DNA of 64,000 nt from Dactylosporangium aurantiacum (lineage in GTDB: Bacteria; Actinomycetota; Actinomycetes; Mycobacteriales; Micromonosporaceae), in NCBI RefSeq assembly GCF_000716715.1, contig NZ_JNYJ01000019.1:68973-132972 (forward strand). Reading direction: 5' to 3'. The position numbers were made by a program, and so were the translations under genes. The notes below the pieces were generated by a model. That model did not search any database and was not told the origin of the DNA. It saw nothing but the letters and a program-made list of their open reading frames with translations. Positions 23,772 through 26,794 of this stretch are shown here, in pieces (position 1 is the first letter of the stretch; the number at the start of each line of letters is the position of its first letter).

Positions 23772-24545
23772 TCAGCGCGCCGGAGCCGCCACCGGCCGGT
23801 CCAGGTAGCGGTCCAGCAGCATGCCGAGGTAGCCAGGGTCGCCGGGGGCGACCGGGCCGGCGGTGCCGAAGTCGGGCACGAGCGCGCGCAGGCGCTCCAG
23901 GGACACCTCGGTGCGGGCGAGCGGACCCGTCGAGTAGACCCGGTCCGGGGCGGCGCCGAGGCGTGCCGCGACGCCGTCGACGATCTCCTCGACCGGCAGC
24001 GGCCGCCCGGAGGCGACGTTGACGACCACGTCGCCGGGGTCGGCGACGAGGATCCGGTCGATGACGTGCATCAGGTCGCGGGCGTCGAGCAGGTCGCGGT
24101 GCGCCCCGCGGTACACGGTGACGGTGCCGCTGCCGACCTGCCGCACGATCGCCGGCAGCAGCTGGTGCGGCCGCTGGTGCGGGCCGACGACGTGGCTGAG
24201 CCGCAGCACGACGTGGCGCGCCCCGGACGCCCGCACGCAGGCCTCCAGGGCGAGCTTGTGCCGGCCGTAGGCCGACGGCGGGAACAGCGGGCCGTCCTCC
24301 GTCGCGGGGGCGGCGGTGTGGCCGTACATCGCGAACGACGCGGTGGAGAAGTACAGCAGCGTCCGGCCCTGCGCCACGCACCCCCGCAGGGCCGCGTAGA
24401 GCACCTCGGCCTCCCGGTCGAACGCGGCGGCGTCGGTGACCGAGGTGCTGGACACGCCGGCGGCGAGCGCCGTCACCTCCGGGAACCGCTCGCCGAACGC
24501 CGCGTCGAGGTTCCTGGCCAGGAACCCGTTACCGATGATCTGCAT
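23772..24545 (-). CDS. NAD(P)-dependent epimerase/dehydratase-type SDR
   Basis: A 257-residue extended-type short-chain dehydrogenase. The N-terminus IIGNGFLARNL is a nucleotide-binding turn of reduced form (GxGxxA instead of GxxGxxG). FSTASFAMYG carries the catalytic serine region, and YGRHK is the YxxxK pair. RDLLDARDLMHVID is typical of the NDP-sugar epimerase/reductase family. ATG 24545 follows a strong GGGAGGA. It is the last gene of the run mqnA-like, mqnC-like, SDR. It could reduce or epimerise an NDP-4-ketosugar, or act on a product of the mqn-like genes; the sequence does not decide. At 257 residues it is shorter than most NDP-sugar dehydratases. Confidence 0.8.
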   Translation of the reverse strand: MQIIGNGFLARNLDAAFGERFPEVTALAAGVSSTSVTDAAAFDREAEVLYAALRGCVAQGRTLLYFSTASFAMYGHTAAPATEDGPLFPPSAYGRHKLALEACVRASGARHVVLRLSHVVGPHQRPHQLLPAIVRQVGSGTVTVYRGAHRDLLDARDLMHVIDRILVADPGDVVVNVASGRPLPVEEIVDGVAARLGAAPDRVYSTGPLARTEVSLERLRALVPDFGTAGPVAPGDPGYLGMLLDRYLDRPVAAPAR

Positions 24546-24608
24546 GTCGTCCTCCCGACCGGGCCGGCGCCGGCCGGTTGCCTGCGCCGCGGCAGCCACC
24601 CGCGCGGC

Positions 24609-25814
24609 TCATCCGACCGGTGTCACCTTCAACAGCCGCTGGGGCGCGATCGCGCCGATTCCGCCGCCCTCGACCGCGGTGGACGACAGGTGCGACACCA
24701 CGCGCTCGTCGACCGGGTCGTCGGCCGGGTCCTCCAGCACCCGCAGGTGCTCGTAGGTGGTGCTGCGCTGGGCCGGGACCCGGCCCGACGCCCGGATCAG
24801 GTGGATCATCTCCAGCAGGTTGGAGCGGTGCTTCGCCCCGGCGGAGGAGACCACGTTCTCCTCCAGCATCACCGAGCCGAGGTCGTCGGCGCCGTAGTGC
24901 AGCGACAGCTGACCGATCTCCTTGCCGGTCGTCAGCCACGAGCCCTGGATGTGGGCGACGTTGTCGAAGAACAGCCGGGCGATGGCGATCATCCGCAGGT
25001 ACTCCAGGGAGGTCGCCTGCGTCTGGCCCTGCAGCTTGTTGTTCTCCGGCTGGTACGTGTACGGGATGAACGCCCGGAACCCGCCGGTGCGGTCCTGCAC
25101 GTCGCGGACCATCCGCAGGTGCTCGATGCGCTCGGCGTTGGTCTCGCCGGTGCCCATGAGCATCGTGCAGGTCGACTCGACGCCCAGGTTGTGCGCGATC
25201 TCCATGATCTCCAGCCAGCGCTCGCCGCTCTCCTTCAGCGGGGCGATCGCCGTGCGGGCCCGCGCCGGCAGCAGCTCCGCGCCGGCGCCGGCGAACGAGT
25301 CGAGGCCGGCCGCCTTGATCCGCTGGATCGCCTCCTCCGGGCTGACCCCGGACACCTTCGCCATGTGCTGCACCTCGGAGGCGCCGAGGGAGTGGATGAC
25401 CAGCGACGGGTAGGCGTCCTTGATGGCCTTGAACATGCCCTCGTAGTACTCGACGCCGTACTCGGGGTGGTGGCCGCCCTGGAACATGATCTGGGTGCCG
25501 CCCAGCTCGACGGTCTCCGCGCAGCGGCGCAGGATGTCGGTGAGGTCGCGCTCCCAGGTCCTGTCGCTCTTCGGCGGCGCGTAGAAGGCGCAGAACTTGC
25601 ACGCCGTCACGCAGACGTTGGTGTAGTTGATGTTGCGTTCGATGATGTACGTCGCGATGTGCTCGACGCCGGCGTACCGGCGGCGGCGCACCGTGTCGGC
25701 CGCGGCGCCGAGGGCGTGCAGCGGCGCCGAGCGGTACAGCTCCAGGGCCTCCTCGGCGGAGATGCGTTCGCCTGCGGCGGCTCGGTCGAGCACCGCACTG
25801 GCAGATCGGGACAT
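24609..25814 (-). CDS. mqnC: MqnC-like radical SAM enzyme (cyclic dehypoxanthinyl futalosine synthase)
   Basis: A 401-residue radical SAM protein. The iron-sulfur motif is CVTACKFC (CxxxCxxC) at about residues 70-77, within NINYTNVCVTACKFCAFYAP, as in MqnC. IMFQGGHHPEYG, LMGTGET and FIPYTYQPENN are further family blocks, and the C-terminal part PVDERVVSHLSSTA is also MqnC-like. MqnC cyclises dehypoxanthine futalosine in the futalosine menaquinone pathway. ATG 25814 has AAAGG seven bases upstream. It follows the MqnA-like gene after a 50-base gap. No mqnB, mqnD or mqnE is seen in the window. It may be the cell's menaquinone gene caught in the cluster, a second copy for self-protection, or an enzyme recruited to make an aromatic unit; sequence alone cannot tell. 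Confidence 0.9.
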   Translation of the reverse strand: MSRSASAVLDRAAAGERISAEEALELYRSAPLHALGAAADTVRRRRYAGVEHIATYIIERNINYTNVCVTACKFCAFYAPPKSDRTWERDLTDILRRCAETVELGGTQIMFQGGHHPEYGVEYYEGMFKAIKDAYPSLVIHSLGASEVQHMAKVSGVSPEEAIQRIKAAGLDSFAGAGAELLPARARTAIAPLKESGERWLEIMEIAHNLGVESTCTMLMGTGETNAERIEHLRMVRDVQDRTGGFRAFIPYTYQPENNKLQGQTQATSLEYLRMIAIARLFFDNVAHIQGSWLTTGKEIGQLSLHYGADDLGSVMLEENVVSSAGAKHRSNLLEMIHLIRASGRVPAQRSTTYEHLRVLEDPADDPVDERVVSHLSSTAVEGGGIGAIAPQRLLKVTPVG

Positions 25815-25864
25815 GGCAGAGCCTTTCGGGGAGTGACGATGTCCGTGTGCCGGGCCGGCCCGGG

Positions 25865-26794
25865 TCACGGCGTTGACAGCAACCGCACCTCGACGTCCGG
25901 CGGGAAGCCGGCATCCGGGCCACCGACCCGCCGGGCGAACTCGGCGATCCCGGCCAGCTGCCGCGGTCCGAGGCTGAAGTCGAGCGCCGTCATGTAGTAC
26001 CGGCGCAGGATCGCCGCGTCGAACGGCTCCCAGCGGGCCGCCTGCTCGCAGACGGCGTCGACCTCGCGCAGCGACAGGTCCCGCGACGCCAGGAACGCCT
26101 GGTGCACCCGCTGGACGGTCTGCGGCTCGCGGGCCACGAAGTCGCGGCGGGCGGCGAAGACCGCGAAGACGAACGGCAGGCCCGTCCACTCCTGCCACAT
26201 CTCGCCGAGGTCGTACACGTGCAGCCGCAGCCGCTGCGCGTCGGCGAGCGCGGCGCGCAGCGCGACGTCGCCGATGACGACGGCCGCCGGCGCGTCCTGC
26301 AGCATGACGTCCAGGTCGGGCGGGGCCGCGAAGTACCGTGGCCGCACCCCGACGAGGTCGCTGAGCAGCAGCGCGGCCAGCCGGACCGAGGTGCGGCTGG
26401 TCGAGCCGAGCGCCACCGGCGCGCCGTCGAGCTGGTCGAGCGGCACCTTGCTGACGATGAGGCACGACATGACCGGGCCGTCGCTGCCCACCGCGATGTC
26501 GGGCAGGGCGACGAGCTCGCCGGCGTGCTTGAGGAACTCCATCAGGCTGATCGGCCCGATGTCCAGCTCGCCCGCGGTCAGCGCGTCGCTGAGCCCGTCG
26601 GGGCTGTCGCGGCGCAGGTCGAGGTCGAGCAGGCTGCCGGTGCGGGCGAGGCCCCAGAACAGCGGCACGCAGTTGAGGAACTCGATGTGCCCGACGCGCG
26701 GGCGGACCGGGCGGCGCCATCCGGCCGGTGCGATGCCGTTGGCGAACGGGCTCGCCGGGGTCGGCCCGGTGAGGGTGCCGAGCGGTTCAGGCAT
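25865..26794 (-). CDS. mqnA: MqnA-like chorismate dehydratase
   Basis: A 309-residue protein of the MqnA/MqnD periplasmic-binding-like fold. Family blocks: [16 protein letters not shown] (about residues 35-50), [30 protein letters not shown], and [19 protein letters not shown]. MqnA converts chorismate to 3-[(1-carboxyvinyl)oxy]benzoate, the first step of the futalosine menaquinone route. The family usually starts close to the GHIEFLN block, so there is an N-terminal extension of about 30 residues. I chose ATG 26794 because AGGAG lies five bases upstream. It is the first gene of the mqnA-mqnC-SDR run and is divergent from a glycosyltransferase across a region holding a PimM-type operator. Confidence 0.87.

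Follow-up and report, generated by a model that had tools for sequence, protein, structure and literature searches.

Futalosine-pathway genes in a peptide-polyketide cluster

The analysis concerned a stretch of 64,000 nucleotides of Dactylosporangium aurantiacum DNA (the window; C19:68973-132972), in which two genes of the futalosine pathway, mqnA (chorismate dehydratase) and mqnC (cyclic dehypoxanthinyl futalosine synthase), lie among genes for nonribosomal peptide synthetases (NRPS), type I polyketide synthases (PKS) and sugar enzymes. The source contig, C19, ends where the window ends and belongs to a genome of 11.4 Mb in 227 contigs; the 34 kb of C19 to the left of the window were also analysed, giving a total stretch of 97,973 bases. 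To judge from its gene content, the host of the two genes is a large NRPS-PKS-glycoside cluster of Dactylosporangium (Table 1).

The original prediction had recognised a clear MqnA and a clear MqnC, and both assignments held. The top match of the window MqnA in the PDB was SCO4506 of S. coelicolor (E 5.8e-119), and six further PDB chains of equal length and near-equal score are named chorismate dehydratase. The cluster MqnC carries the radical S-adenosylmethionine (SAM) motif CxxxCxxC as CVTACKFC. Its open reading frame was called from 25793; by eye, an in-frame ATG at 25814 behind GAAAGG is the likelier start. As had been described, the pair lies between NRPS 1, which is downstream, and a glycosyltransferase gene, EryCIII-like, which is upstream and divergent. 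The short-chain dehydrogenase/reductase reported in the same run is indeed a gene at that place, of the NAD-dependent epimerase/dehydratase type; it adjoins mqnC, in an order conserved in three congeners.

The absence of mqnB, mqnD and mqnE, also predicted, is true of the window and not of the cluster: all three lie 4.7-18.5 kb to its left, together with a ferredoxin gene. The cluster MqnB, MqnC and MqnE each scored above an NCBIfam equivalog cut-off. No NCBIfam model separated MqnA from MqnD, and these two were told apart within PF02621 by their PDB matches, SCO4506 and other chorismate dehydratases for the former and TTHA1568, which we take to be an MqnD, for the latter.

Table 1. Features of the cluster. 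Positions are those of the window unless prefixed with C19.
Feature	Position	Strand	Evidence or remark
mqnA, cluster copy	25865-26794	-	PF02621, 232.6 bits (cut-off 26)
mqnC, cluster copy	24609-25814	-	TIGR03699, 459.4 bits (cut-off 428.1)
NAD-dependent epimerase/dehydratase, sugar-type	23772-24545	-	PF01370
mqnD	C19:63365-64237	+	PF02621; matches TTHA1568
EhpF-like enzyme	C19:62077-63156	-	matches EhpF structures (PDB 3hgu/3l2k)
mqnE	C19:60866-62032	-	TIGR03700, 524 bits (cut-off 434.55)
ferredoxin	C19:60520-60822	-	with mqnE
mqnB	C19:50429-51208	-	NF006087, 238.1 bits (cut-off 213); cluster border gene
operator AAGTCTGGGGGTTTCCC (= AAGTCTGGGGGTTTCCCGGG = AAGTCTGGGGGTTTCCCSGG), 20 bases	26885-26904	+	between mqnA and the divergent glycosyltransferase gene
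second operator copy	30658-30677	+	upstream of sugar gene 29469-30554
third, weaker operator-like site	C19:63277		between mqnD and the EhpF-like gene; matrix score 16.7
PAS-LuxR regulator	3889-4572	+	PF08448 PAS fold and GerE; inferred TTG start; candidate reader of the operator
fatty-acyl-AMP-ligase-type enzyme	C19:51966-53714	-	
PKS, ACP-KS-AT-ACP-aminotransferase	C19:53711-58678	-	
phosphopantetheinyl transferase			in the cluster, left of the window
large LuxR-type (LAL-like) regulator	747-3323	+	two further such regulators immediately to the left
type I PKS, two KS-AT-KR-ACP modules	4702-14697	-	domain search
MbtH-like protein	14757-14969	-	
stand-alone thioesterase	15011-15754	-	
NRPS 1, three C, two A and two PCP domains	15759-23636	-	downstream of the epimerase/mqnC/mqnA run
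EryCIII-like glycosyltransferase	26956-28161	+	upstream of mqnA, divergent
RfbH-like NDP-hexose 3-dehydrase	28166-29476	-	NF011936, 647.8 bits (cut-off 423)
NAD-dependent epimerase/dehydratase family	29469-30554	-	probable sugar gene
NRPS 2, three C, two A and two PCP domains	32057-39619	-	
type I PKS genes	45010-63985	-	truncated by the contig end; a thioesterase domain closes the gene at 45010-54597

A second complete set in the genome

Profile searches of the genome found two complete mqnABCDE sets, the one outside the cluster being divided between contigs C36 (A, C and E) and C54 (mqnB, adjoining an mqnD). There were four PF02621 proteins and five full-length proteins of the MqnC/E/CofH type, with two of each on C19; two extra weak matches to the latter were fragments on C50. 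In total the genome holds two MqnC above the cut-off and two MqnB. The C36/C54 set is called housekeeping here because its type of A, C, D and E was found in all seven Dactylosporangium genomes. Identity between a cluster protein and its own housekeeping counterpart was 60% for A, 61% for B, 72% for C, 61% for D and 78% for E. The cluster copies were 82-92% (A), 91-96% (C), 78-87% (D) and 94-97% (E) identical to the cluster copies of three congeners.

Two copies each of A, C, D and E were present in four of the seven genus genomes and single copies in the other three; in the same proportion, four genomes had four PF02621 proteins and two MqnC above the cut-off, and three had two and one. The sequence shows the five enzymes in addition to a full housekeeping set elsewhere in this genome, and shows them retained along with the cluster in four species. 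Across the family an MqnA match was found in 350 of 354 genomes, and the cluster type (E 4.3e-140 or better) in six, the source included, the next among the matches listed being at 6.2e-111. Trees were built from hand-chosen rows, 28 for MqnA and 19 for MqnC. In the first, ten cluster copies were split from the 18 others with support of 94/93; in the second, nine housekeeping copies of the source's family were split from ten others at 100/100.

Relatives, operator sites and similar sets

The complete genomes of D. fulvum NRRL B-16292 and D. vinaceum NRRL B-16297 had the same gene content from mqnB to the PKS genes, with the block from the mqnC-adjacent epimerase to NRPS 2 inverted whole and, in D. 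vinaceum, one additional called gene at the edge of the inverted block. D. siamense keeps, on its contig C158, the stretch that runs from MbtH to the PKS, and there the inversion is confined to the half from the sugar genes to NRPS 2. To the right of our contig break D. fulvum and D. vinaceum are collinear, with more PKS and NRPS genes and genes for an ABC transporter, an NDP-hexose 2,3-dehydratase, a carbamoyltransferase, a ketosynthase III (KSIII) and a SAM synthetase. D. fulvum has about 155 kb from mqnB to the SAM synthetase gene, and D. vinaceum about 160 kb. In both, the KSIII and SAM synthetase genes are near the far end of the cluster; the stretch corresponding to the KSIII gene lies beyond the end of C19, and the position of the SAM synthetase gene fits the use of SAM by MqnE. 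SAM synthetase genes in or next to clusters with a futalosine set were seen at L082:8430-9623, L089:13489-16132 and L021:12773-16492, with adenosylhomocysteinase alongside in D. vinaceum and on the Streptomyces plasmid NBC_00342. Left of mqnB, a single neighbouring gene matches between D. fulvum and D. vinaceum (59%), which indicates that the cluster occupies different sites in the two.

A further Dactylosporangium genome, G103, has no extra mqnA, mqnC, mqnD or mqnE, and the genes that flank the cluster in D. fulvum are present in it at 88-97% identity. What remains of the cluster there is mqnB (95% identical to that of D. fulvum), a HAD gene (91%) and the KSIII gene (93%), the two cluster ends being adjacent; the three stand side by side at L192:9762-12727. 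A HAD-type hydrolase gene is likewise beside mqnB in the source (C19:50429-51957), D. fulvum and D. vinaceum. None of the 51 genes called between those ends in D. fulvum was found in the G103 stretch. As the same three genes bound the cluster of D. vinaceum at another site, the G103 locus is likelier to be a deletion than an empty pre-insertion site. Two copies of mqnB were found in three of the seven genus genomes (the source, G104 and G107) and one in the other four. No mqnB is beside the housekeeping mqnD of D. fulvum, and the cluster mqnB of D. fulvum and G103 seems to serve both pathways. A single cluster-type gene in that role speaks for a functional mqnB and against a view of mqnB as a pure duplicate.

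A cluster-specific operator had been predicted in front of the pair, and this was borne out. The 13-mer CTGGGGGTTTCCC occurs twice in the 97,973 bases and in none of five random sequences of equal dinucleotide make-up; it recurs exactly in D. siamense and in altered form in D. fulvum, D. vinaceum and a Streptomyces plasmid, where it precedes a hydrolase-mqnA-mqnC run. A matrix was made from five sites (two from the source and one each from D. fulvum, D. vinaceum and the S. angustmyceticus plasmid), which score by construction, and was used with a threshold of 12. Outside this set, the D. fulvum mqnA is preceded by a site scoring 28.6, the D. vinaceum sugar gene by one of 24.2 and the EhpF-like gene of Streptomyces sp. 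150FB by one of 19.5; between mqnD and the EhpF-like gene there is a site in the source (16.7), D. fulvum (15.4), D. vinaceum (16.7) and the plasmid (12.3). Further sites above 12 numbered two on the plasmid, one in D. vinaceum (intragenic), two in G199, one in G266 and one in Streptacidiphilus. The expectation by chance, from 20 random sequences, is 0.25 matches per 98 kb. There was no match in the L021 or L022 stretches, nor in four other stretches of the source genome (78 kb).

The published PAS-LuxR consensus is the 16-base CTVGGGAWWTCCCBAG (PMC9774167, in its excerpted text). By eye, the cluster sites differ from it at two to four positions, the site at 26885-26904 at two. Both a PAS-plus-LuxR protein and consensus-like sites before cluster genes are thus present, and the protein is predicted to bind them. 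The likeness to the PimM-type regulators of that article lies in the PAS-plus-LuxR protein, the type I PKS cluster and the palindrome-like sites; the difference lies in those two to four positions. The regulator gene had a short call at 4174-4572, and the TTG at 3889, with AGGAG upstream, brings back the PAS domain.

Similar sets were sought on plasmids, where MqnA-like proteins occurred on 14 of 72,556 records; six of the 14 were examined in annotated form, NBC_01450 among them without annotation. The S. angustmyceticus plasmid carries mqnA, mqnC, a ferredoxin gene, mqnE, an EhpF-like gene and mqnD beside PKS and sugar genes. On NBC_00342 the run is metK, ahcY, mqnB, mqnE, ferredoxin, mqnA and mqnC, with mqnD 126 kb off near PKS and glycosyltransferase genes, and the Mut1 plasmid has the same metK-to-mqnC block. 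Lone mqnA genes were found on the S. atratus plasmid (L022:19974-20879; one PF02621 protein and no MqnC-type match in the whole record) and the Streptomyces NBC_00376 plasmid (L188:7947-8861; 17 kb seen). Both are beside genes for a TauD-type dioxygenase, NRPS and PKS. G199 and G266, of another genus, each carry two EhpF-like genes in a different PKS region along with mqnA, mqnC, mqnE and a ferredoxin gene; a further PF02621 protein, the third, is encoded some 146-148 kb away. In these clusters (L064/L065, L068/L069) one EhpF-like gene is beside mqnE and the other beside a CAL-type PKS.

The PKS region 45010-63985 was called as three genes, compared with a single protein of 7,984 residues in D. 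fulvum, and two of the three called proteins share their first 30 residues; together these make an assembly fault or a frame break at repeated AT domains likely. Two stand-alone acyltransferase-like proteins are encoded at 41012-42949. In S. angustmyceticus a relative of them (47% and 41%) adjoins an NRPS that lies beside the futalosine set; one relative (33%) is beside the EhpF-like gene of G103. Adenylation-domain codes, read with motif rules, gave no readable signature in the cluster, and no product was deduced from them.

Role of the second set

These results argue that a dedicated second futalosine set, MqnA to MqnE with its ferredoxin, very probably supplies 1,4-dihydroxy-6-naphthoate as a building block of the cluster product. 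A building block made from chorismate under pathway control had been among the original suggestions, and that much stands; the suggested end point, 3-[(1-carboxyvinyl)oxy]benzoate or a derivative, probably does not, since with A to E all in the cluster it is most likely 1,4-dihydroxy-6-naphthoate. By analogy with the known pathway, MqnA would convert chorismate to 3-[(1-carboxyvinyl)oxy]benzoate, which MqnE would join with SAM to give aminodeoxyfutalosine. A deaminase from outside the cluster would then yield futalosine: no adenosine-deaminase-family gene was found on C19, and the genome has two, on C7 and C13. MqnB and MqnC would take futalosine to the cyclic intermediate, and MqnD would release 1,4-dihydroxy-6-naphthoate. 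The PAS-LuxR regulator would switch on both mqn blocks along with the sugar genes, as the sites and the gene content suggest.

The later steps are much less sure. The EhpF-like enzyme might adenylate the naphthoate carboxylate, and the unit might then be built into or onto the peptide-polyketide product as a naphthoquinone. The enzyme is 95% identical to its relative in D. siamense, 88% to that in D. fulvum and 85% to that in D. vinaceum; the plasmid form shares 66-67% identity with the Dactylosporangium forms, and 63% with one and 55-56% with the other of the G199/G266 copies. It resembles EhpF of D-alanylgriseoluteic acid biosynthesis (PDB 3hgu/3l2k) in being of adenylating type, about 360 residues long and matched over nearly its full length. 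In the title of its published description, cited in PMC3175449, EhpF is an atypical ANL member; it acts in phenazine biosynthesis. The fatty-acyl-AMP-ligase-type enzyme and the ACP-KS-AT-ACP-aminotransferase are laid out in what we take to be the manner of the start of beta-amino lipopeptide synthases of the MycA type, and the pair could accept either a fatty acid or the naphthoate.

Several observations weigh against the naphthoate proposal or its details. The stricter second models for MqnC and MqnE were missed (NF006277, 382.9 against 576; NF006276, 322.6 against 560). The support of 94/93 for the MqnA split is slightly below the usual 95% mark, and the ten other rows of the MqnC tree are nine cluster copies and one Streptomyces housekeeping copy; a Streptomyces-side origin of the cluster MqnC is suggested, but not proved. 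The sole MqnB found in D. fulvum and G103 is of the cluster type, so that it is not a pure second copy everywhere. In the plasmid cluster L021, which carries a futalosine set, the scanned stretch gave no match to the operator. Genes of the EhpF type are also found apart from extra mqn genes: in G103 (58%, next to sugar genes and a gene for an acyltransferase-like protein), twice elsewhere in the source genome (37-38%) and in Streptacidiphilus (53%). Their presence is therefore no proof of naphthoate activation. A CAL-ACP loader of the GonP8 type was not found: the CAL query, from an S. angustmyceticus PKS with GonP8's kind of domain set that stood in for GonP8, was 65% identical to proteins of two other genomes and gave, among the best matches listed for Dactylosporangium, NRPS A domains at about 30%. 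Finally, the presence of a fatty-acyl-AMP-ligase-type enzyme might point to a lipid starter. At 41-42% identity, this enzyme is closer to G199 and G266 ligases that are unlike the CAL type, the G199 one being fused to an acyl-CoA dehydrogenase.

Three other explanations were weighed. If the product bound or depleted menaquinone, the second set might protect the producer by boosting its menaquinone synthesis. As an NRPS hybrid the cluster belongs to a class with menaquinone binders among its members; its operator sites suggest that the set is co-regulated with it, and the cluster-type MqnB that is the sole one of D. fulvum and G103 is probably able to serve menaquinone synthesis. The explanation nevertheless fits poorly and is very unlikely, as the duplication goes no further than 1,4-dihydroxy-6-naphthoate: the 35 genes called from mqnB to the contig end gave no Pfam match of UbiA or UbiD type, and the later genes of the cluster, which lie past that end, were scanned in part in D. 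fulvum and D. vinaceum. Moreover, according to the excerpted text of PMC4763440, the equivalent genes of PM100117/PM100118 serve a moiety of the product. Slightly less probable still is that 3-[(1-carboxyvinyl)oxy]benzoate, from MqnA alone, is the building block and the other mqn genes are passengers. Such a use may exist elsewhere, on the S. atratus and NBC_00376 plasmids, where NRPS and PKS genes adjoin an mqnA that has no C or E with it and the benzoate itself may be the unit; here, A, C, D and E are all retained in four Dactylosporangium species, and operator-like sites are present at both mqn blocks.

That the cluster genes are housekeeping genes stranded by insertion of the cluster is scarcely credible, and for mqnA and mqnC this part of the original prediction was rejected on copy number, tree and distribution. 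A further copy of each was found on C36 within a complete second set on C36 and C54, the two sets are only 60-78% identical, and the cluster copies stand apart from the family's housekeeping copies in both trees. The three congeners that lack the cluster copies retain only the housekeeping type of A, C, D and E. For mqnB alone the outcome is mixed, no other copy having been found in D. fulvum and G103.

Beyond the supply of 1,4-dihydroxy-6-naphthoate by the second set, a bolder scheme is offered tentatively, and we think it rather unlikely to hold as a whole. A "naphthoate cassette" would be portable, passing from one giant antibiotic cluster to another in Streptomyces, Dactylosporangium and a third genus, of the family of Dactylosporangium. 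Here the naphthoate would be activated by the EhpF-like enzyme, perhaps extended by the ACP-KS-AT-ACP-aminotransferase to a beta-amino-beta-naphthyl acyl starter, and would end as the naphthoquinone warhead of a glycosylated NRPS-PKS product of an undescribed class. In the line of D. fulvum the cluster mqnB would have taken over the housekeeping step and hence been retained in G103 after loss of the cluster.

A primary-metabolism route to the nucleus of vitamin K2 thus appears to have been copied whole into a secondary-metabolite cluster, and similar sets are found in clusters of several actinobacteria. Extra mqnA, mqnC and mqnE with a ferredoxin gene next to PKS or NRPS genes could be searched for to find antibiotics that bear a naphthoquinone and whose genes may have been entered as menaquinone genes. 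G103 and D. fulvum provide a natural case in which a cluster gene has seemingly become the sole copy of a primary-metabolism step. Should the naphthoate prove to start an NRPS-PKS line, it would represent a new type of aryl starter.

Diversion of futalosine genes to an antibiotic-type cluster is of a kind already known. The original prediction knew of no described cluster with this pair, and the pair is gonM1 and gonM2 of the PM100117/PM100118 macrolide cluster of Streptomyces caniferus. As far as the excerpted text of PMC4763440 goes, the homologues of A, C, E, D and the ferredoxin gene are gonM1, gonM2, gonM3, gonM4 and gonF2, in that order. Deletion of gonM4, the mqnD homologue, lowered production and left naphthoquinone-less derivatives, and the partial rescue of the mutant was credited to the other mqnD in the genome. 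A full supply of the naphthoquinone requires this homologue. Both clusters are glycosylated type I PKS clusters with A, C, D, E and ferredoxin, and both genomes have additional copies elsewhere, of MqnA-D in S. caniferus and of a whole housekeeping set here. In S. caniferus MqnB comes from outside the cluster, the published table contains no NRPS, and the unit is proposed to be loaded by a CAL-ACP PKS together with KSIII enzymes; the present cluster, an NRPS-PKS hybrid, encodes its own MqnB, and no CAL domain of that sort was found in it.

A second comparison is with the NRP metallophore cluster of Sporomusa termitida, which has a partial menaquinone pathway (menFDEB) and is compared with the karamomycins; in the excerpted text of PMC12971057 that pathway, too, is predicted to have been turned to making a hydroxynaphthoate unit for an NRPS product. 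The prediction involves the classical Men route to 1,4-dihydroxy-2-naphthoate, not the futalosine route. Karamomycin was set aside as a product of the present cluster because the published work, as excerpted, ties it to the Men route. Among the matches listed from the open-licence PMC literature, nothing concerned this cluster or a full futalosine set in an NRPS cluster. Relative to PM100117/PM100118, what is new is the complete set with MqnB, the NRPS-PKS host, the EhpF-like gene, the shared operator, the likely deletion in G103 and the presence of similar sets in other clusters.

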